Shown one piece after another: positions 5,817-45,944 of a stretch of DNA of 47,265 bases (the first letter of the stretch is position 1; each line of letters opens with the position of its first letter). Under the pieces are notes generated by a model. The model saw nothing but the letters and a program-made list of their open reading frames with translations, made no database searches and had not been told where the DNA came from. This DNA is from an uncultured Verrucomicrobiales bacterium (GTDB taxonomy: Bacteria; Verrucomicrobiota; Verrucomicrobiia; Verrucomicrobiales; Akkermansiaceae), in contig CALGZA010000073.1 in assembly GCA_937934595.1 (NCBI GenBank), positions 1 through 47,265 on the forward strand. Reading direction: 5' to 3'. The position numbers and the translations under genes are program-made.

Positions 5817-5891
5817 TGGAGCGGGTGAAGAGATTCGAACTCTCGACATTGACCTTGGCAAGGTCACGCTCTACCACTGAGCTACACCCGC
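5817..5891 (-). tRNA. tRNA-Gly(GCC), copy 2
   Basis: On the minus strand the sequence folds as a standard cloverleaf: acceptor GCGGGTG/CACCCGC, D arm, anticodon loop TTGCCAA with anticodon GCC, T arm with GTTCGAATC, discriminator U73 and an encoded CCA. It is identical over its whole length to the copy at 5936-6010, and lies 44 bases downstream of it. Confidence 0.96.
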
Positions 5892-5935: not shown

Positions 5936-6010
5936 TGGAGCGGGTGAAGAGATTCGAACTCTCGACATTGACCTTGGCAAGGTCACGCTCTACCACTGAG
6001 CTACACCCGC
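5936..6010 (-). tRNA. tRNA-Gly(GCC), copy 1
   Basis: Same cloverleaf and GCC anticodon as the copy at 5817-5891, including the encoded CCA end. It is upstream of that copy in the direction of transcription. The identity extends two bases beyond the 3' end and seven beyond the 5' end (84 bases in all), which indicates a recent tandem duplication with a period of 119 bases. Confidence 0.96.
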
Positions 6011-35826: not shown

Positions 35827-38196
35827 TTAATATATCGACCTCAACTCAGGCTCCTCCTCAGCAGACTCAACATCCACAATCAATTTCCGCAAACTAGCCA
35901 CATGCTTCTTCAAACTCTTAAACTCACGATGACTCCTCAAATCCTTCTCCAACTGTCGCAACTTCGGCAACAAGGGCTTAACACTACCACCATAAGACGC
36001 CAAAACCTTTAAACAACGTCCAATCCGCTGCTTCTTACCCCACTTCTGCGCATCCATCGCATCAAAGCACAAAGCCATCCCCTCCTTGATCCCATGCTTA
36101 GCCAAAAGCTCAACACCTGCCAACCGAACCTCAGCAGAAAACATAATCCCACTCGGCGCTGCCTTCTTAACCGCATCATAAATAGCCGGCAGCAACGGCT
36201 TTATCTCTTCATAACTAAGCCTCTTATACAGCCTAGAAATACTCCCCCTAGAACGCCCATCCTCATTCTTTAACCCAGAAATAATCGCCTTCCCCAGCCT
36301 CTCCCTATCAACCCCATCCAGAGCCCCCTTCAGCATCTTATCAAAAAGAGCAAAATTCAAATACCGCTGCTCCATCCCACGCGGATCCTTAGCTGATGGA
36401 CCTCGCGCCGCCATCTCTAGAAGCTCCGGAACAGCAACCATACCAGGCTTCCCCATCGAAGCAAGAGCCTCAGCAGCACGAACCCGCAACCAAAGATGCT
36501 TATGCCGGAGACACTTTCGCAAGGGCTGCACAGCAGAAGCCACCTTCATATCCCCCAAAACCCGACAAGCCCCCATCCGAGCATTCAAATTCGATGAACT
36601 CAACAAACCAATAATCTGATCCACATCCCCTGCTCCCATAGTATGCTTTGTAAAAGCCTTCACAGCCCTCTCCCTTACAGCAGGTGACCAGCTCCCCAAA
36701 CGCTTAATCAAACGCTCCTTACTCAACCCATCATAAAACTTATTCTTATCCTTATAATTCCAACCCAAACCATCCTTCACTATACTCTTAGCCATCTTAC
36801 TACCCATCACGCCAAGCACACCCTTCTTCTTACCAGTCAAATGCAAACTCCTCAAAGGCAACGCATAAGACAACAAATAAGCCCCAGTACAGTCCCATCC
36901 ATAATAACTATCAGGCTTCACCCCAGGAGGCCCCTGATGAATAAAACCACCATCCCACTGCCTCGCTAAATCATAATACCAACCACCATACTGACTCATC
37001 CACGCTCCACAAGCATTCGGACCAGACTGAGCCACTCCAGGCATCGACCACAGAACATTAAAAAAATTACCCGTATGCCCACCATCTCGCTCAGACCCAT
37101 GTGAAGCCAAACTCATCCTAGAAAAGAATGACGCCGGCCTCTTCTCTCCCAGCAAATTAAACATCAATGCAGCCATCCCATTCTTACCATTATCCTCATG
37201 CGTCTCAAGCCACGGATGATGATCCCCATACGGAACCGAACCCTTCCCCTCATAAAAACGCACCAACTTAGCATTCTTCGCTATCGCATCAGACACCACC
37301 TTATCCTTCACCCCAGCCTCACGCGCCAAAATCAAAGATATCGTCAGCGGAATACTCGTAGCATTCATCATCCCATAACCACCTAACATCCCATCACCCT
37401 GAATAAAACGATGCCCCCAGGAACCCACAGCACTCTGACCATTCGCTATCTCTAACGCCAACCGCCGCATACCATCCTCAAAACTCGTATCGCCTGTAGC
37501 CATCGTATACTCAGATAAAAACATCAGCACATAACTATAAGTCCATGAATAGTATCCCTTACTACGGAACCTTGATGCCCACCTCGCCTCGCGCTTCAGT
37601 AAAGGCAAATACTCCTCTTTCCCACTCGCTAATAAAGCCAATGAATTTAAAGACCGCGTAATCGCACGCTTCTTCCGCTTACGAACAGACATACGCTTAG
37701 CCAACGCAGAACAACCACGCGCAAAAATCTTCCTCGACTTAGAACAACGATAAGGAGCCGTATCAGAATACGCACCCAATACAACCAACTTTAACCGAAC
37801 ATCCCTCGTCTTACCCCCTCGCCAACACCTCAACTTCAACAAACCACTACCTGCCTCAGCCAATGAAATCGCTCGCCCAAGATGCTTCCTCGGATCAGAA
37901 ACAAACAGCTTACCACCCGCCCCCAATAACACATCACCCACCTCCAAAACACCATCAGCAGGAGAACCACTCTCCACCTTCGTTACCAATATCTGCCTCG
38001 CATCTATCGTCGTCAACTTATCACTATACATCCACCCCCTCGCCCCAGTCGCCCCCAAATTCCAATCATGCCGCGCACCCGCCGGCACAACATCACCCTT
38101 AGTAAAATCAGGATGCTTCATCTCCCCCCCTCTCGGAGCCGCATGAAGAATTAAAGAGCATGCTATAGACAAAGATAATAGTAGTAATTTAGTCAT
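35827..38196 (-). CDS. Exported PDZ-DUF6288-HEAT repeat protein, paralog of 18303-21101
   Basis: A 789-residue secreted protein. A signal peptide covers about 1-19 (LILHAAP). A PDZ-like domain at about 50-125 (EVGDVLLGAGGKLFVSDPRK) and a helical region at about 150-470 (SLNSLALLASGKEEYLPLLK, SAVGSWGHRF) match the same parts of the 932-residue protein, including the shared order and the L-ALLxSG-YLP segment. Instead of PA14 domains, the C-terminus (about 490-700) has HEAT-like repeats (RMGACRVLGDMKVASAVQPL, RVRAAEALASMGKPG). It lies upstream of ileS on the same strand with a 123-base gap. Function is unknown. Confidence 0.83.
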   Translation of the reverse strand: MTKLLLLSLSIACSLILHAAPRGGEMKHPDFTKGDVVPAGARHDWNLGATGARGWMYSDKLTTIDARQILVTKVESGSPADGVLEVGDVLLGAGGKLFVSDPRKHLGRAISLAEAGSGLLKLRCWRGGKTRDVRLKLVVLGAYSDTAPYRCSKSRKIFARGCSALAKRMSVRKRKKRAITRSLNSLALLASGKEEYLPLLKREARWASRFRSKGYYSWTYSYVLMFLSEYTMATGDTSFEDGMRRLALEIANGQSAVGSWGHRFIQGDGMLGGYGMMNATSIPLTISLILAREAGVKDKVVSDAIAKNAKLVRFYEGKGSVPYGDHHPWLETHEDNGKNGMAALMFNLLGEKRPASFFSRMSLASHGSERDGGHTGNFFNVLWSMPGVAQSGPNACGAWMSQYGGWYYDLARQWDGGFIHQGPPGVKPDSYYGWDCTGAYLLSYALPLRSLHLTGKKKGVLGVMGSKMAKSIVKDGLGWNYKDKNKFYDGLSKERLIKRLGSWSPAVRERAVKAFTKHTMGAGDVDQIIGLLSSSNLNARMGACRVLGDMKVASAVQPLRKCLRHKHLWLRVRAAEALASMGKPGMVAVPELLEMAARGPSAKDPRGMEQRYLNFALFDKMLKGALDGVDRERLGKAIISGLKNEDGRSRGSISRLYKRLSYEEIKPLLPAIYDAVKKAAPSGIMFSAEVRLAGVELLAKHGIKEGMALCFDAMDAQKWGKKQRIGRCLKVLASYGGSVKPLLPKLRQLEKDLRSHREFKSLKKHVASLRKLIVDVESAEEEPELRSIY

Positions 38197-38340: not shown

Positions 38341-39810
38341 ATGGATACCATTCTGCACATACTAAAAGTCATCGGACTCATTCTTCTCGTTCTCCTCAGC
38401 TTCAATATCATCATATTCATTCACGAACTAGGACATTTCCTCGCCGCCAGATGGAGAGGCCTACACGTTGACAGATTCCAAATCTGGTTCGGCAAACCCA
38501 TCTGGAAAAAAACCATCAATGGCGTCCAGTACGGACTAGGATCCATCCCCGCTGGCGGCTTCGTCTCACTACCACAAATGGCTCCCATGCAGTCCATCGA
38601 AGGCGAAAATGGCGAACAAAAAGAACCCCTCCCACCCATCAAACCAATAGATAAAATCATCGTAGCATTCGCTGGCCCACTCTTCTCATTCCTACTCGCC
38701 GTATTCGCCGCATGCATCATCTGGAACATCGGAGTCCCAGACAAAGTCATCAAAACAAACGAAGTAGGTTACCTAGCTAAAGGAATGCCAGCAGAAAAAG
38801 CAGGATTTAAACTCGGAGACAAAATCCTAGAAGTCAACGGCACACCAACCAACGGATTCAGAGGAAACCTAGATTCCACATCAGAACTCATCATCTTCAG
38901 TAAAGGCCCACACATCAACTTCAAAGTCGATAGAGACGGTGAACAACTATCACTAAAAAGTGATTTCATCGCCAAAGATGGAAGCCTTTTCCAGCGCCGA
39001 GGCACAAGAAAAGTAGGCATTGGCCCAAGAGTTAAACTCATCATTAACACCCCTAAAGATGGCACTCCTGCACACTTCAGCGGACTAAAACACGGTGATC
39101 TCATTGAAGCCATTGAAGGTGAAAAAATATATAGCTACGGCCAATTCCAAGACCTTATCAAATCACAAAAAAATAACGTATTCACAATCACTGTATTAAG
39201 AAACAACCAGCCTACTGACATCAAAACAATGGCATTAGAACCCAGCAATGGCTGGAAAGCTCATGATAAAGCAGAGCTAACTCCCATGTTAGGAATCGCA
39301 TTCACAAATGACCCACCCGAATTAGTCTACCCCACCCCAGGTAAACAAATCAAAGAAAGCAGCCTAATGATGTACAACACCCTCAGCACCCTCATATCAC
39401 CCTCATCCAGCATCGGCCTCGACCAGCTCTCAGGCCCAGTAGGAATAGGCAAAGTCCAATACCAAATGCTAGACAGCGCATACCCCATTAACTACATATT
39501 CTACTTCTGGGTCATCTTTAACATCAACCTCGCCATCTTTAACCTACTCCCATTCCCAGTCCTAGACGGCGGACACATCACCATGGCTCTCGGTGAAATG
39601 ATATTCAAAAAACCAATAAACACCAGAGTCCTAGAAATCGTCCAGACAGGCTTCGTCCTCCTACTCCTCAGCATGTTCGTCTACGTCACCATAAAAGACC
39701 TCTTCTCAAATGATCAAAATAAAATCACCAAAAAAACCATACCTAAAGAAGGCCCCATCTTTGACCTCACACCACTTAAAAAAGCCCTAGGTGAAAAAGT
39801 AACCGAGTAA
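38341..39810 (+). CDS. rseP: RseP-type site-2 intramembrane metalloprotease
   Basis: A zinc protease that cuts within membrane helices of its targets, such as anti-sigma factors and signal peptides. I take the ATG at 38341 as the start; a GTG at 38290 in frame would add 17 non-hydrophobic residues. From that ATG, HELGH is at 28-32 in the first helix. Two PDZ domains follow (KTNEVGYLAKGMPAEKAGFK and INTPKDGTPAHFSGLKHGDL). The third metal ligand lies in FPVLDGGHI. About four helices in total. Length 489 is normal. It converges with the last gene of the RpoE-like operon and overlaps it by 24 bases; dxr and other usual neighbours are absent. Confidence 0.94.
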   Translation: MDTILHILKVIGLILLVLLSFNIIIFIHELGHFLAARWRGLHVDRFQIWFGKPIWKKTINGVQYGLGSIPAGGFVSLPQMAPMQSIEGENGEQKEPLPPIKPIDKIIVAFAGPLFSFLLAVFAACIIWNIGVPDKVIKTNEVGYLAKGMPAEKAGFKLGDKILEVNGTPTNGFRGNLDSTSELIIFSKGPHINFKVDRDGEQLSLKSDFIAKDGSLFQRRGTRKVGIGPRVKLIINTPKDGTPAHFSGLKHGDLIEAIEGEKIYSYGQFQDLIKSQKNNVFTITVLRNNQPTDIKTMALEPSNGWKAHDKAELTPMLGIAFTNDPPELVYPTPGKQIKESSLMMYNTLSTLISPSSSIGLDQLSGPVGIGKVQYQMLDSAYPINYIFYFWVIFNINLAIFNLLPFPVLDGGHITMALGEMIFKKPINTRVLEIVQTGFVLLLLSMFVYVTIKDLFSNDQNKITKKTIPKEGPIFDLTPLKKALGEKVTE

Positions 39811-40317
39811 ACCTAGACTCACACCACTCAAAAAACCACCCAACAAAGCAACCCACCCATAATGACCCCTCACCACACCCTCCTCAATTAAAGCAGCCTG
39901 GTACTGTAAGGTAAAAATACTCCGCGCCGCATTCTGACACAACAAATAAAAACAAAGCAAACCAGCAAACAAACCCACTGGAGGAATAAAAACAGCCACC
40001 ACAGCCGCCACCATAGATGGCCACCTCGCCCACACATCAAACCTCCTCAAACCATAACCAGTAATCACATACACCGGCCCCATCAAAAAACACAGCGCAC
40101 CAGGCACCAACAACAATGGCATACCCAAGATAAAATACCCCCACGCTAAACAACCCCCAACAGCAACCAACATACTCCCCAGAAAATAATAAAACCAACC
40201 CACCGCAAGTATCGCCATCTCCTCCCTTCGAAACCTCTCCAGCAAATCATCAGACTGGAGATTCTCCACCTCCTCTAACGTCTGCTCCACCGGACTTCGA
40301 TAAGGATCAAACCCCAT
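39787..40317 (-). CDS. Four-helix membrane protein of unknown function
   Basis: A 176-residue protein with about four membrane helices (about 39-60, 63-85, 97-118 and 153-174) and a soluble N-terminus that starts MGFDPYRSPVEQTLEE. I do not recognise the family. It is the last gene of the RpoE-like operon and its start overlaps the cca stop codon by 11 bases, so translational coupling is likely. Its 3' end overlaps the rseP stop on the other strand. Confidence 0.75.
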   Translation of the reverse strand: MGFDPYRSPVEQTLEEVENLQSDDLLERFRREEMAILAVGWFYYFLGSMLVAVGGCLAWGYFILGMPLLLVPGALCFLMGPVYVITGYGLRRFDVWARWPSMVAAVVAVFIPPVGLFAGLLCFYLLCQNAARSIFTLQYQAALIEEGVVRGHYGWVALLGGFLSGVSLGLLGYFFT

Positions 40318-41665
40318 ATCGCCCCCTCACCCAGCTGATAGCAGACTCACTATCTTTTAACCTTCCCTCCAATTGCTCAGTCTGAACCAACATCAGTATC
40401 TCCTTAAACAAAGGCCCAGGAGACAAACCCAGCCCCATCAAATCACGCCCCTTGATAAGCGGCTCAGGGATCAAAGGCTCATTCGCAAACTCCTCACGCT
40501 TCTCCAAAACAAAATCATAATTCTCCGTAAACCCATTGCTACTCGCACAGTCAACACGGTGCAGCTCTATCTCATCCTCAAACGTCGGCCTAGACATAAA
40601 ACGCTTCAACTTCGAGACCTTCATCTGCCGAACATGCATAAAATTCATATGATTCGCCACCATCACCCGCACATCCTCAACCGTATCATTCGGATACTTC
40701 ATCCTCCGTAAAATCTCCTCACTCATCGCTGCACCCACACCATCATGACCATTAAAACGGATCCTCTCATCCGCCTCATCATACGTATACGTAGCAGGCT
40801 TACCAATATCATGCAACAACACCGACAAAGCCAAAGACAGAGAAACCTCCTCACTCCCTAACATCTCTAACATAATACAAGTATGAACATAAACATCCCC
40901 CTCAGGATGCCACTGCGGAGGCTGCTCACACCCTAACAAATCCAAAACCTCAGGAAGAAAATAACGTATTAACCCACTATCCACCAATAACTCCAAACCA
41001 CGTCGCCTACCACCAGATACAAGAATCCTCGAAAACTCCGCCTGCACCCTCTCAATAGATACCTTCTCTAACAAACCAGCATTATCACACATCGCCAACC
41101 ACGTCTCCCCCTCTATCTCAAATCCCAAAGTAGCAGCAAACCGTACCGCCCTCATCAAACGCAAGGCATCCTCCTGAAACCTCGCCGCAGGATCTCCAAT
41201 TGCCCGCAAAACCCCAGCCTTAAGATCATCCTGCCCACCCACATAATCAATCACCTCACCCGTAACCACATCCTGAAATAACCCATTCACCGTAAAATCT
41301 CTCCGCTGAGCATCCTCCTCAGGACTAGAAAACGCCACACTCTCAGGCCGCCGCCCATCATGATAACTCCCATCCGTCCTAAACGTCGCTATCTCAAAAG
41401 ACTCACGCCTTTCTCTACCCCTCACACCAGCCTTAACCAGCATCACACCAAAATGAGCTCCAATAGCATCAGAATCAGGGAAAATAACCTGCACCTCCTC
41501 AGGCGTTGCACTCGTCGCTATATCAAAATCCTTAGCCACCTTCCCAAGCAATGAATCCCTAACACACCCACCAGCAAAATAAGCCACATAGCCAGCACCA
41601 CGTAACTTCTCAGCCACACCTACTGCCGCCTCTCTAACCACACTATATTCTTCACACTTCATCAT
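40307..41665 (-). CDS. cca: CCA tRNA nucleotidyltransferase / polyA polymerase family
   Basis: A class II nucleotidyltransferase that adds or repairs the 3' CCA of tRNA. The 452-residue protein has GGCVRDSLLGK at 32-42 and the catalytic acids in DFDIATSA with Asp46 and Asp48. RRDFTVNGLF follows (about 124-133). A C-terminal HD domain has LLHDIGKPATY, with the His/Asp of the HD motif. CCA is needed here because tRNA-Arg(UCU) does not encode it. A family member with polyA polymerase or CC/A-adding specificity cannot be ruled out. It follows yraN by 63 bases. Confidence 0.92.
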   Translation of the reverse strand: MMKCEEYSVVREAAVGVAEKLRGAGYVAYFAGGCVRDSLLGKVAKDFDIATSATPEEVQVIFPDSDAIGAHFGVMLVKAGVRGRERRESFEIATFRTDGSYHDGRRPESVAFSSPEEDAQRRDFTVNGLFQDVVTGEVIDYVGGQDDLKAGVLRAIGDPAARFQEDALRLMRAVRFAATLGFEIEGETWLAMCDNAGLLEKVSIERVQAEFSRILVSGGRRRGLELLVDSGLIRYFLPEVLDLLGCEQPPQWHPEGDVYVHTCIMLEMLGSEEVSLSLALSVLLHDIGKPATYTYDEADERIRFNGHDGVGAAMSEEILRRMKYPNDTVEDVRVMVANHMNFMHVRQMKVSKLKRFMSRPTFEDEIELHRVDCASSNGFTENYDFVLEKREEFANEPLIPEPLIKGRDLMGLGLSPGPLFKEILMLVQTEQLEGRLKDSESAISWVRGRYGV

Positions 41666-41728
41666 TATAAAACGCTAAAACATCTAATCAACAAGAGCAA
41701 GCCAGAACACCTCACAAAAAAAACCGCT

Positions 41729-42169
41729 CTAAAACGCACCCTCCACCACAGTAATCTCAGGCTTCTCACCATCCGTTAACTCCACCTCCACAACATCAAA
41801 GCGCCACAAAATAGCATCATCCTTCAACAAATTCAACCAAGCCCTCGCCCCCCTCCTAATCAAGGCCTGCTTCTTCAAATCAACAGCATCCAATGGCCTA
41901 CTAGTCTCTCGCTTCCTACGCGTCTTCACCTCCACAAACGTCAACGTCTTACCATCACGGGCCACTATATCTATCTCACCACCACGCGGCCCTCTAAAAT
42001 TACTATACAAAATCTTCCTCCCATCAGCATATAGCCGTAACCGCGCCATCCTCTCACCCAGCTCACCCAGCGCCATATGGCCCAACCTATCACCCCGCTT
42101 ATCAATCAAACGGAAGCGTGAGTTGAGCAACGGGTGCAAACGATTTACGATGTATCTTAGTAGGCCCAT
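41729..42169 (-). CDS. yraN: YraN/UPF0102 nuclease-fold protein
   Basis: Small protein of the endonuclease-like UPF0102 family, of uncertain role, sometimes linked to recombination. The core LGELGERMARLRLYADGRKI is followed by GGEIDIVARDGKTLTFVEVK and the second FVEVKTR core, with Glu, Asp and Lys in the nuclease PD-(D/E)XK-like order. Start chosen at ATG 42169, giving 146 residues and a helical N-terminus; this overlaps rnhB by 68 bases. A shorter start at 42076 would give 115 residues, close to the family core alone. The frame is open further upstream to 42286, but a start there would lie deep in rnhB. It is co-transcribed with rnhB and cca. Confidence 0.85.
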   Translation of the reverse strand: MGLLRYIVNRLHPLLNSRFRLIDKRGDRLGHMALGELGERMARLRLYADGRKILYSNFRGPRGGEIDIVARDGKTLTFVEVKTRRKRETSRPLDAVDLKKQALIRRGARAWLNLLKDDAILWRFDVVEVELTDGEKPEITVVEGAF

Positions 42170-42737
42170 AAGCATAGAGAGCTTCAAGGTGAAACTTAGT
42201 CCCATAACCCTTATGCCTCTCAAAGCCATACTCAGGGAATTCCTCCGCATACTCCAGCATTTTCCTATCCCTCGTAACCTTCGCAATAATACTCGCCGCC
42301 GCTATACTCAAACTCTTCCCATCCCCCTTAACTATCCCCTCAGACGCAAAAGGAAAATTCTTCACCGCCAAACCATCAATCAAACAATAAATAGAACCCA
42401 CCCTCACACTCAGCTCCTCAGCCACTCGCCCCATTGCAGCATGCGTCGCACCCAGAACATTCAGCCTATCCACCTCATCAGCCTCCGCAAAACTATGCGC
42501 CCATAATATCCGCTCATCACCCACCAAATCCTCATAAATCTTCTCACGCTTCTTCTCACTAATCTTCTTAGAATCATCTAACAACTCATGCTCATACCCA
42601 CGCGGCAAAATCACCGCCGCAGCCGAAACCGGCCCAGCCAATGGCCCTCGCCCAGCCTCATCTATCCCCACTACACAAGAAAAATCCTCCGCATCCCCAC
42701 GCTCCACCACACTCTCCTCAAATGATAAATCAGGCAT
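42102..42737 (-). CDS. rnhB: Ribonuclease HII
   Basis: Cuts the RNA strand of RNA-DNA hybrids and starts removal of single ribonucleotides in DNA. From the ATG at 42737, the 211-residue protein has the DEAGRG motif with Asp26 and Glu27 (GIDEAGRGPLAGPV), LLDDSKKISEKKR, Asp121 in LIDGLAV and Asp139 in KGDGKSLSIAAASIIAK. An in-frame ATG at 42779 would add 14 residues and overlap nadK by 10 bases; the shorter start is preferred because it fits the family N-terminus. It overlaps yraN. Confidence 0.95.
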   Translation of the reverse strand: MPDLSFEESVVERGDAEDFSCVVGIDEAGRGPLAGPVSAAAVILPRGYEHELLDDSKKISEKKREKIYEDLVGDERILWAHSFAEADEVDRLNVLGATHAAMGRVAEELSVRVGSIYCLIDGLAVKNFPFASEGIVKGDGKSLSIAAASIIAKVTRDRKMLEYAEEFPEYGFERHKGYGTKFHLEALYAYGPTKIHRKSFAPVAQLTLPFD

Positions 42738-42769
42738 AAATAAACAAACGCATAAACCACTCTCAAACA

Positions 42770-43630
42770 CTAACCCCAATGCAACTTATGCCTCAAAGTA
42801 GAAAAAAAGGACCTACCCTCCAAACGAATAATATTCAACTTATAATCAGCCTTCTCAACCGTCACACTCCCACCATGAACAATCTCAACAGGACTACGCC
42901 CATCAACACTAAACAACGTCGGCACCTCCGAATCATCCACTGACCTCAACTCAACCACCGAACTATCCGTCAAAACCAGCGACCTATTACTCAAACTATG
43001 CGGACAAATAGGAGTTATCACCATATTCTCCGCCCTCGGAGACAACAACGGCCCACCAGCCGATAAAGAATAAGCAGTTGAACCAGTCGGCGTCGCCACT
43101 ATCAAACCATCAGCCCTATAATGATTCAACAAATCACCATCAATAAACGCATCCATAGCAACCACCCGCCCATTCTGACCCCGCGTTAACGTAATCTCAT
43201 TCACAGCATAAAACTCCGATGACAAACCATCTATAAAATGAATCGTAGCCTTAAGCAGCATCCGCGGAACAACATGATACGTCCCCCCAGCCAAGGCACC
43301 CACCAACAACTCCATCTCAGTATCATTACAACTAGACAAAAAACCCAAATGACCAAGATTCACACCAGCCACAGCCACAGCAGTCCTTCCCAGCCTATGA
43401 GCCGCATCCAAAATAGTACCATCTCCACCAAGCACTATAACAACATCACACTCATCAGCTAAACCTCTAGCAGATAAAACCTCAACCCCATGATCTCCAA
43501 GATCCAGTGCAGCAATAGTCTCATCCTCAACAACAGAAGACAGATCAAATGAAACCAAAATCTCCAGCAACCTCAAAAGAGCCAACCTCACCCCATCCTT
43601 ATACGGATTAGCTATGATACCTACCTTCAT
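42770..43630 (-). CDS. nadK: NAD kinase
   Basis: Phosphorylates NAD to NADP. The 286-residue protein has the ATP-binding GGDGT motif at 68-72 (VLGGDGTILDAAHRLG), GVNLGHLGFLS at 89-99, AVNEITLTRG at about 143-152, and the NAD-binding DGLIVATPTGSTAYSLSAGG block. All the family blocks are present in order. It is 30 bases after the PDZ gene in the RpoE-like operon, and its stop codon lies 32 bases before the rnhB start. Confidence 0.95.
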   Translation of the reverse strand: MKVGIIANPYKDGVRLALLRLLEILVSFDLSSVVEDETIAALDLGDHGVEVLSARGLADECDVVIVLGGDGTILDAAHRLGRTAVAVAGVNLGHLGFLSSCNDTEMELLVGALAGGTYHVVPRMLLKATIHFIDGLSSEFYAVNEITLTRGQNGRVVAMDAFIDGDLLNHYRADGLIVATPTGSTAYSLSAGGPLLSPRAENMVITPICPHSLSNRSLVLTDSSVVELRSVDDSEVPTLFSVDGRSPVEIVHGGSVTVEKADYKLNIIRLEGRSFFSTLRHKLHWG

Positions 43631-43660
43631 AAATAGAAGCCTAAAAAATCAAATTCATGA

Positions 43661-44548
43661 CTACTTATAAAGCGGATTAACCTCAGGAACCACACTCAAA
43701 TTCATCAGCTTCGTACCACGTAAAATCTTAAACTCAGTAGCCGTATCAGCCTTAAGATAATAAAAAGCATTCACCACCGCCGCATAATCAGAAACCTTCT
43801 CACCACCAATAGACAAAACCACATCATTCTTCTGTAAACCCGCCTTCTTAGCCGGCGTCCCTGGCCGCACTCCAATAATAAGCGGCGCATCACTTAAATC
43901 ATCCATACTCACCCCTATCCAACACGGCCTAAATACCCCCTCATTCTCAGCCACTACAGACTTAACATGTGTCAACACCTCCACAGGAAGAGCAAACATC
44001 GTCTTATCCACTCCGTCACGCTGAAAAACAAACGCCACCAACTCATCCTTCGAATTCAAAATCGGAGTCCCTGCCTTCTGTAAACCAACAGGATGATTAA
44101 TCCTAACAAAAGTCAGCGGCAAAATCTTACCATTAAAACGCTTCACATGACTAACTACCCGGCTCACCTCATCACGCTTATTCACATCAGTAATAACAGC
44201 ATCCCCAGGCTCCAAATTCTTACTCGCACCTATCATACTCACAATACCCACACCTTCCCTCTCAGACTCAGGCAGCTCCAAAACAGTAATCCGGCTCACA
44301 GGATCATGAATCTTCAACTTCAACTTAACCCGCTCACCCTTACTATTAATTACAGTAGCCTTCTCAGGATCTGCCCCCTTCAGAGCAATTGTCACTAAAG
44401 TCCCATTTTCATCCATCAAAGAACCCTCAGCCTCATACACATTACCCCCCTCCTTTACAGACGCAAAACGAAGCGCCTTGGACTGACTGAACGCAGAAAG
44501 CGATCCCAGAGCAAAAAGAGAAATAACGGAAATCCAAGTTTTAATCAT
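43661..44548 (-). CDS. Exported PDZ protein with a degenerate trypsin-like domain
   Basis: A 295-residue secreted protein. A signal peptide is at about 1-21 (LGSLSAFSQS). Residues about 40-195 look like the chymotrypsin-type fold of HtrA proteases: EGSLMDENGTLVTIALKG, then NHPVGLQKAGTPILNSKD, where HtrA enzymes have GNSGGPL. Here the catalytic Ser is replaced (KAGTP), and the His position is also not evident. A PDZ domain covers about 205-285 (GVRPGTPAKKAGLQKNDVVL). It is therefore likely a non-catalytic, chaperone- or sensor-like HtrA relative. It sits between the one-pass membrane protein and nadK, 30 bases before nadK. A true protease of another type is unlikely. Confidence 0.8.
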   Translation of the reverse strand: MIKTWISVISLFALGSLSAFSQSKALRFASVKEGGNVYEAEGSLMDENGTLVTIALKGADPEKATVINSKGERVKLKLKIHDPVSRITVLELPESEREGVGIVSMIGASKNLEPGDAVITDVNKRDEVSRVVSHVKRFNGKILPLTFVRINHPVGLQKAGTPILNSKDELVAFVFQRDGVDKTMFALPVEVLTHVKSVVAENEGVFRPCWIGVSMDDLSDAPLIIGVRPGTPAKKAGLQKNDVVLSIGGEKVSDYAAVVNAFYYLKADTATEFKILRGTKLMNLSVVPEVNPLYK

Positions 44549-44624
44549 AGCTAGTAGTTAAGATAAATGAAAAGTAGTGACAAGGACAAAGCCTCAAAAG
44601 CAGAGAACCATCACTCAACACATA

Positions 44625-45050
44625 TTAAAAAATCTTCTCATCAGTATAAAATACCGGAGCAGAAGCAGAAAAATCAACAGGCTCTACAAAAACCATACCC
44701 ACCGGCTCAATATCAGACCCCACAGCTGCCTCCACAGGAACATCTCTCACCACAACTGAAGTAACCTCATCATCAACAACAGCCAAAGCATCAACTCCAC
44801 CTTCAGATAGCACATTGACACACAAAGAAACAGCCGCATAAGCTGCACCTGCCCCTACCAACCACCTCATCGCACCAAACTCAGCAAACCAAGCCTTAAC
44901 TCTCTCTACAAAAAGCCCCCTAGCCGAGGTCTTCAATATCTCAGACCTCTGACGCTGCTGAAACTCAACCAGAAATTCATCAAAGTAACCCTCCTCAGGT
45001 TGCTCATACTTCTTAAGACTAATGAGATCTTGCACTTCTTTATCTGTCAT
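44625..45050 (-). CDS. One-pass membrane protein, candidate anti-sigma factor
   Basis: A 141-residue protein with a soluble N-terminal part of about 60 residues (helical, charged), a membrane helix at 61-80 (MRWLVGAGAAYAAVSLCVNV) and an outer tail of about 60 acidic residues rich in Val and Asp. It is 28 bases after the RpoE-like sigma gene, in the position where anti-sigma factors stand. No known anti-sigma motif (ZAS or ASD) is seen, so the role is inferred from position and topology. Sequence similarity to a named family could not be tested. Confidence 0.7.
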   Translation of the reverse strand: MTDKEVQDLISLKKYEQPEEGYFDEFLVEFQQRQRSEILKTSARGLFVERVKAWFAEFGAMRWLVGAGAAYAAVSLCVNVLSEGGVDALAVVDDEVTSVVVRDVPVEAAVGSDIEPVGMVFVEPVDFSASAPVFYTDEKIF

Positions 45051-45078
45051 AATACTTACTGTTAATTTCTGTAACCTA

Positions 45079-45768
45079 TTAGCTATGCCTCTCGCTTCCC
45101 TGAAACTCTGCTAAATAACCTCTTAATTGCTGGTGAGCATAGAACAACCTCGAGCGAACCGTGCCCTCAGATACTCCTAATACCCTCCCTATCTCAGCAT
45201 GTGGCATACCCTGAATGTCAAACATAGTAACCACCGCTCTATGATCATCTGACAACAACATCATCGCATTGTTCAATTTTTTTTGAAGTTCATTGATATT
45301 TATCTGCCGCCTAGGATTAGAACGATGACTCATATCCACAAAAGCTGCATCATTCTGTATACCTTTATCTACATCATCCAAACTTGAAGTCGCCCGCCTC
45401 TTTCGCTTCTTCAAAAAATTCAACGTCATATTGGTAGCTATAGAATAAATCCACGTATAAAACATCGAATTCCCCCTAAACTTACTGACAGATCGATAAG
45501 CCTTCGCAAAAATATCCTGCAACAAATCATGCGTATCATCTTTATTAGATGTCATATTATACACCAGCCCATACAACTTCTGGCTATACTTCATCACCAA
45601 CTCATCAAAAGCCTCAGTACTACCCTCCTGCGCCAGCGTCACAAGATGTAAATCAGGATCCACATTTGCACTAGGCTTTGTCTGAGCTCTCTCATCCATA
45701 GAAGATGTTGACGTTTCTACATCAACAGACCTCTCTAAATCAAGTGCATTGATAAGGTTTTTAGTCAT
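45079..45768 (-). CDS. RpoE-like sigma-70 family ECF sigma factor
   Basis: A 229-residue ECF sigma factor. Region 2 is about 54-123 (FDELVMKYSQKLYGLVYNMT, DLLQDIFAKAYRSVSKFRGN, FYTWIYSIATNMTLNFLKKR). Region 4 is about 165-217 (LSDDHRAVVTMFDIQGMPHA, SEGTVRSRLFYAHQQLRGYL). A 40-residue N-terminal stretch rich in Ser, Thr and Asp precedes region 2. It is the first gene of an eight-gene minus-strand operon. Its neighbours (one-pass membrane protein, PDZ protein, and RseP beyond the operon end) suggest envelope-stress control. Confidence 0.92.
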   Translation of the reverse strand: MTKNLINALDLERSVDVETSTSSMDERAQTKPSANVDPDLHLVTLAQEGSTEAFDELVMKYSQKLYGLVYNMTSNKDDTHDLLQDIFAKAYRSVSKFRGNSMFYTWIYSIATNMTLNFLKKRKRRATSSLDDVDKGIQNDAAFVDMSHRSNPRRQININELQKKLNNAMMLLSDDHRAVVTMFDIQGMPHAEIGRVLGVSEGTVRSRLFYAHQQLRGYLAEFQGSERHS

Positions 45769-45944
45769 CGTTGTTCGCTATCTATGACAAACATACCACA
45801 CATTTGTTCAATATTCACCAAGAGATTCTAATACCAACCAATATTCAAAACACACATGCTAAACCAAATCACCTCCTAGACACCACATCACACCGCAAAG
45901 CACACGCATTTCACTCTATTTCATAGACTAATAACAAGTGGCGA

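Follow-up and report, generated by a model that had tools for sequence, protein, structure and literature searches.

An envelope-stress module of Verrucomicrobiota in which a catalytically dead HtrA-like protein may bind the tail of a candidate anti-sigma factor

The regulatory cascades closest to the locus analysed here are RpoE-RseA-DegS-RseP of Escherichia coli and AlgU-MucA-MucB-AlgW-MucP of Pseudomonas aeruginosa. In the latter, a periplasmic PDZ HtrA protein, AlgW, reads the C-terminal F of a small protein, the separate activator MucE (WVF tail), and AlgW cuts; the PDZ domains of DegS and AlgW bind YxF/WVF C-termini (PMC8545111). RseA and MucA are also controlled by caps, RseB and MucB respectively, which are non-catalytic periplasmic proteins that bind the anti-sigma factor and suppress its cleavage (PMC8545111). 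At the intramembrane step, the PDZ domains of RseP act as a size filter, keeping out bulky substrates (PMC7728848), and a truncated RseA is cleaved without site 1 (PMC10202637).

The window, which is the whole 47,265-nucleotide stretch of contig CALGZA010000073.1 analysed here, belongs to an uncultured bacterium of the Akkermansiaceae, and the nearest named relatives of its genome are uncultured Rubritalea and Akkermansiaceae. A preliminary description of this DNA had recognized in it the set of parts of the E. coli cascade, starting from an RpoE-like sigma gene at the head of an operon. Such a gene is indeed present, preceded by a promoter-like site:

45079-45768, minus strand: ECF sigma factor, RpoE-like, 229 aa (Pfam Sigma70_r2 and Sigma70_r4; TIGR02939 is the top match)
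45786-45812, minus strand: predicted autoregulatory ECF promoter, ATTGAAC-N16-TGTC, upstream of the sigma gene

The presence of both Pfam regions, together with a TIGR02937 score of 107 bits against a cut-off of 42.9, places the 229-aa protein among the ECF sigma factors, and its top PDB relatives are ECF factors of the sigma-H and E. coli sigma-E type. TIGR02939 (RpoE) is the best equivalog shown for it, at 132 bits, which is under the curated cut-off of 236. The ATTGAAC-N16-TGTC site is aligned at one place upstream of sigma in all 9 of the 9 sequences shown for genus g1, two of which are the window and the copy of it in its genome (genera and families are designated by anonymous codes: g1, g3, g9, f1 and f9). 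A looser pattern, GAAC-N15..20-[TCG]GTC, matches 33 of 72 upstream regions, drawn from eight genera; among shuffled regions the share is 7%. When the genome was searched for a regulon with the promoter pattern, 7 matches were obtained versus 4 for the reversed control, with no convincing target except the sigma operon itself.

Directly downstream of sigma lies the gene that had been proposed, on the basis of its position, to encode a one-pass anti-sigma factor:

44625-45050, minus strand: anti-sigma candidate, one-pass membrane protein of 141 aa, unannotated family (no Pfam family)
44871-45050, minus strand: its conserved cytosolic domain, residues 1-60, motif LKRYEqPeeGYFedFLeEFhrRQR (alignments; AF2 helices 3-13 and 22-58, low confidence)
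44805-44870, minus strand: transmembrane helix, about residues 61-82 (hydrophobic stretch; AF2 helix 62-82)
44628-44639, minus strand: C-terminal EKIF, proposed PDZ ligand (hydrophobic C-terminal residue, F/L/Y/M, wherever a pseudo-HtrA gene is present, with a single exception)

Past the transmembrane helix the protein has 2 K/R versus 13 D/E, consistent with a C-terminus outside, and the extracytoplasmic part of the anti-sigma candidate is short, with a median of 48 residues at the f1 loci that have the pseudoprotease. The layout recalls the class I/II anti-sigma domains (RseA, RsiW, CnrY), in which a short helical cytosolic N-terminal domain stands ahead of a membrane helix. Unlike these, the domain found here has no zinc motif and no sequence match in Pfam, in NCBIfam (a chance match only) or in the PDB (no meaningful match), and its poor AF2 model (pLDDT 57) predicts, with low confidence, one short and one long cytosolic helix. 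Class I is defined by a four-helix domain with three helices binding sigma region 4. The 141-aa protein matches none of the Pfam anti-sigma domains, RseA and zf-HC2 included, and a Pfam scan of 26 of its relatives returned one weak DUF match and otherwise none. Moreover, no zinc-finger anti-sigma factor (zf-HC2) was found in the genome, and no anti-sigma factor of this kind was found for Verrucomicrobiota in the annotation libraries or literature searched.

Profile searches with the N-terminal domain of the 141-aa protein showed that most genomes of its family and order carry it, as do many at the level of class and phylum, and the sigma gene is directly upstream in 167 of 178 genomes from 18 families, which, together with the charge bias across the helix (N-terminus in, C-terminus out), agrees with what is expected of an anti-sigma factor encoded with its sigma. 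This gene order, for which the preliminary description had suggested looking in other Verrucomicrobiota, is thus widespread as far as the pair is concerned. The 11 exceptions comprise eight genomes of genus g3 and three in which the match is near a contig end; in g3 (L170, L164, L161, L162, L171, L172) the anti-sigma-like domain has no detectable sigma gene beside it. Because the adjacency recurs in 167 genomes, the gene set lies far beyond chance. Position, topology and the autoregulatory promoter-like site lead us to infer that the 141-aa protein is an anti-sigma factor, probably holding sigma inactive.

The third gene encodes the HtrA-like PDZ protein:

43661-44548, minus strand: pseudo-DegS, predicted secreted HtrA-fold protein with a single PDZ and a lost triad, 295 aa (Pfam PDZ_2; HtrA alignment)
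43679-43933, minus strand: PDZ domain, residues 206-290, with a carboxylate-binding-loop-like WIGV (loop conserved in relatives)

The absence of the catalytic Ser had already been recognized, and the loss extends to the entire triad: in the alignment to HhoA, H is replaced by L, D by R and S by A, which excludes the protein from the DegS/HtrA serine proteases as far as catalysis is concerned. In 101 relatives the triad is likewise missing as a set, and a few of them have an isolated Asp or Ser. The fold is predicted to be retained: the AF2 model (pLDDT 74) has an HtrA fold followed by one C-terminal PDZ, it matches MucD, DegS with YQF peptide and AlgW with Z of 17-19, and against DegS it gives a Foldseek E of about 1e-15 and a VIA Z of 18.5. 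The putative binding loop is also retained: CWIGVSMD is unchanged in seven close relatives, and W-hydrophobic-G is found in most others. The Verrucomicrobiota protein differs from E. coli DegS in being catalytically dead, and it has a signal-peptide-like start. No RseB/MucB domain was found among the scanned operon proteins.

What is new here is an association across loci: of the 105 at which the dead HtrA is encoded by the third gene, 104 have an anti-sigma candidate with a hydrophobic end. The last residue at these loci is F in 76, L in 15, Y in 8, M in 5 and K in 1, and the locus with K (G219) is the sole one that combines a pseudoprotease with a polar end. Without the pseudoprotease, the end is hydrophobic at only 25 of 55 loci (Fisher p = 3e-16; p = 3e-5 after collapsing to genera), with the provision that the genomes are probably mostly metagenome assemblies, one per species, in which a pseudoprotease could be missed at breaks. 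Where no adjacent copy is present, the pseudo-HtrA was sought elsewhere in the genome, and just ordinary PDZ/HtrA matches, far weaker than the true members, were found. The idea was formed on the first 42 relatives, in which the anti-sigma candidate always has F or Y as its last residue if its gene is followed by that of pseudo-DegS, and rarely otherwise. In the genomes added afterwards, which broaden the sample to cover the family, a second family and the phylum, hydrophobic ends are found in 82 of 83 with the gene and in 22 of 35 without it (p = 2e-7); this value applies to the F/Y/L/M rule, a broader version of the original F/Y rule that was adopted once more data had been seen, and F/Y alone gives p = 0.01 in the later set.

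The rise in conservation is limited to the final two or three residues, a pattern like that of a PDZ ligand: the entropy is 1.29 bits at position -1, 2.21 at -2 and about 3.4 upstream. On the tree of sigma and anti-sigma, a Pagel-type two-trait test prefers dependent evolution (LR 33.3, p = 1e-6); the rate of tail loss is estimated at about 0 when the pseudoprotease is present and at about 1.2 when it is absent. Dollo parsimony infers 20 losses of the pseudoprotease, with non-hydrophobic ends in many of those clades; where it is lost, the sigma pair persists and the tail often goes. In the part of genus g9 that has lost the pseudoprotease, tails range from an intact F to GP or RP. In family f9, all 7 of 7 genomes have a -(L/I)KF tail, and no pseudoprotease was detected next to it or at any other site; this tail must have another reader or be a relic. 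The anti-sigma candidates of f9 (L258, L260, L262-L264 and relatives) have a long extracytoplasmic part, with a median of 193 residues and an invariant KF end. Given the exceptions represented by f9, g9 and G219, the tail may therefore have a second reader. Binding of the anti-sigma C-terminus by the pseudo-DegS PDZ is well supported by the covariation, which speaks for an interaction as such, not its sign, which may be either inhibition or promotion of cleavage.

The remaining part of the supposed cascade is on the opposite strand:

38341-39810, plus strand: RseP site-2 protease, 489 aa, with HELGH and LDGG (TIGR00054; PDB RseP relatives)

RseP is intact: TIGR00054 gives 224 bits against a cut-off of 147.6, and both motifs are in the sequence. 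As previously reported, its gene adjoins the operon and is convergent with it; the two overlap at 39787-39810, within the last operon gene. That gene (39787-40317, minus strand), which also overlaps cca, encodes a multi-pass membrane protein of 176 aa that belongs to no known family and is conserved in L002, L003 and L004. Between it and the pseudo-DegS gene, on the same strand, are nadK, rnhB, yraN and cca; gaps do not exceed 76 bases, which is consistent with one transcript. Nevertheless, rseP lies within about 10 kb of sigma only in the window and in three close relatives, L002, L003 and L004, out of about 42 neighbourhoods, most covering about 10 kb on each side, and it is present at other sites in the remaining relatives; nadK, rnhB, yraN and cca are linked to sigma only in the nearest relatives. 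The linkage of RseP to the operon in relatives, on which the preliminary description had made its reading depend, is thus confined to three of them, and rseP and nadK/rnhB/yraN/cca are not part of the module, although RseP may act in trans. An IspG-like gene follows rseP in some relatives, and inspection by eye established no link with dxr. Beside rseP and ileS there is also a 789-aa protein (35827-38196, minus strand) with PDZ, DUF6288 and HEAT repeats, and the order rseP-DUF6288-ileS is preserved in L004. Elsewhere in the window, two tandem tRNA-Gly(gcc) genes are found at 5817-5891 and 5936-6010 (minus strand), and positions 1-46000 have a very strong, constant strand asymmetry (GC skew from -0.12 to -0.53, AT skew mostly from +0.14 to +0.34).

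Of the set of parts originally proposed, sigma, the anti-sigma candidate and the dead HtrA stand as a module, and RseP as a linked part does not. The synteny across the phylum strongly supports the view that these three genes would form one envelope-stress module, and the evidence goes beyond the original reading, since the end of the anti-sigma candidate varies together with the presence of the dead HtrA. The likeness to E. coli lies in the RpoE-like sigma, the adjoining gene for a single-pass anti-sigma candidate, the single-PDZ DegS-like HtrA fold, RseP and the autoregulatory promoter-like site. As a genetic unit the system differs from the E. coli cascade, since rseP is unlinked to the sigma operon in most relatives; moreover, the anti-sigma candidate differs from RseA, having no match to its profile and itself ending in a PDZ-ligand-like residue. 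In P. aeruginosa the F tail is on the activator and AlgW is able to cut, whereas here it is the anti-sigma candidate that carries the F tail, and its partner is unable to cut. The cap that we propose, pseudo-DegS, would correspond in its role to RseB and MucB. RseB is a lipid-binding protein and has no PDZ or HtrA fold.

On balance we favour a phylum-wide switch of the sigma-E type, in which pseudo-DegS would cap the tail of the anti-sigma candidate, the C-termini of outer-membrane proteins would compete for the cap and RseP would cut. The N-terminal domain of the 141-aa protein would hold sigma at the inner membrane, leaving a short acidic C-terminal part in the periplasm, and pseudo-DegS, unable to cut, would bind its last residues (EKIF here) via the PDZ. 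At rest, the capped tail would make the anti-sigma candidate too bulky to pass the RseP size filter. Unfolded or misfolded outer-membrane proteins, also ending in F, would compete for the PDZ pocket, and RseP would gain access to the uncapped tail, either directly or once a further protease of the periplasm has trimmed it; sigma, once released, would switch on its own operon. Sigma binding, tail binding, the competition and the RseP step are all parts that we infer; capping is suggested by PDZ HtrA proteins that read F ends, the RseP size filter, the cleavage of RseA without site 1, the short anti-sigma tail and the fact that both Omp85 proteins of the window's genome end in F (YEF, TQF). The stricter proposition, that a site-1 protease has turned into a non-catalytic PDZ cap displaced by those C-termini, with RseP cutting in the absence of any site-1 cut, is put forward more tentatively, and we would not be surprised to see it fail.

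The main rival makes pseudo-DegS a recruiter, which would bind the tail and hand the anti-sigma candidate to an active HtrA or to RseP, promoting cleavage, with the C-termini of outer-membrane proteins as activators as in DegS. The same covariation would result, HtrA proteins form oligomers, and six strong Trypsin_2 domains in the window's genome could do the cutting; the persistence of the sigma pair after pseudoprotease loss, often with loss of the tail, has no obvious fit to a factor required for activation, and we regard this reading as rather unlikely, while taking it seriously. The straight RpoE-RseA-DegS-RseP cascade, with the HtrA-like protein as site-1 sensor protease, is suggested by the gene order, by RseP next door in the window and by the DegS-like fold, but it can hardly be maintained with three catalytic positions replaced here, the triad gone in the relatives and the RseP linkage not conserved, and of all the readings we give it the least credit.

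Two further explanations dispense with the direct reading of the tail by the adjacent protein. The hydrophobic end could be a degradation or OMP-like signal for tail-specific proteases, DegP-type proteases or RseP, its link with the pseudo-HtrA being indirect, in agreement with the F tails kept by f9 and by some genomes without the pseudoprotease. We consider this improbable, given that a tail-loss rate of zero is estimated only for lineages with the adjacent pseudo-HtrA and that adjacency and the PDZ domain make the latter the simplest reader. The correlation could also be an accidental result of common ancestry, without any interaction, as the sequences are related and much of the phylum probably inherited both genes from its ancestor; the dependence survives the tree model, and the repeated pseudoprotease losses have non-hydrophobic ends in many clades, so that we find an accident very improbable.

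Under the capping scheme, the system seems to be a variant of the E. coli envelope-stress cascade in which a cutting sensor has become a binding sensor. The three-gene stress switch is probably present in this bacterium and in most of its relatives across Verrucomicrobiota, with the gut genus Akkermansia probably among the carriers, and an unannotated protein family is now supplied with its sigma and a likely partner. If capping is true, regulated intramembrane proteolysis would here be steered by ligand displacement and not by a site-1 cut, and a dead HtrA protein kept across the phylum would have a function.
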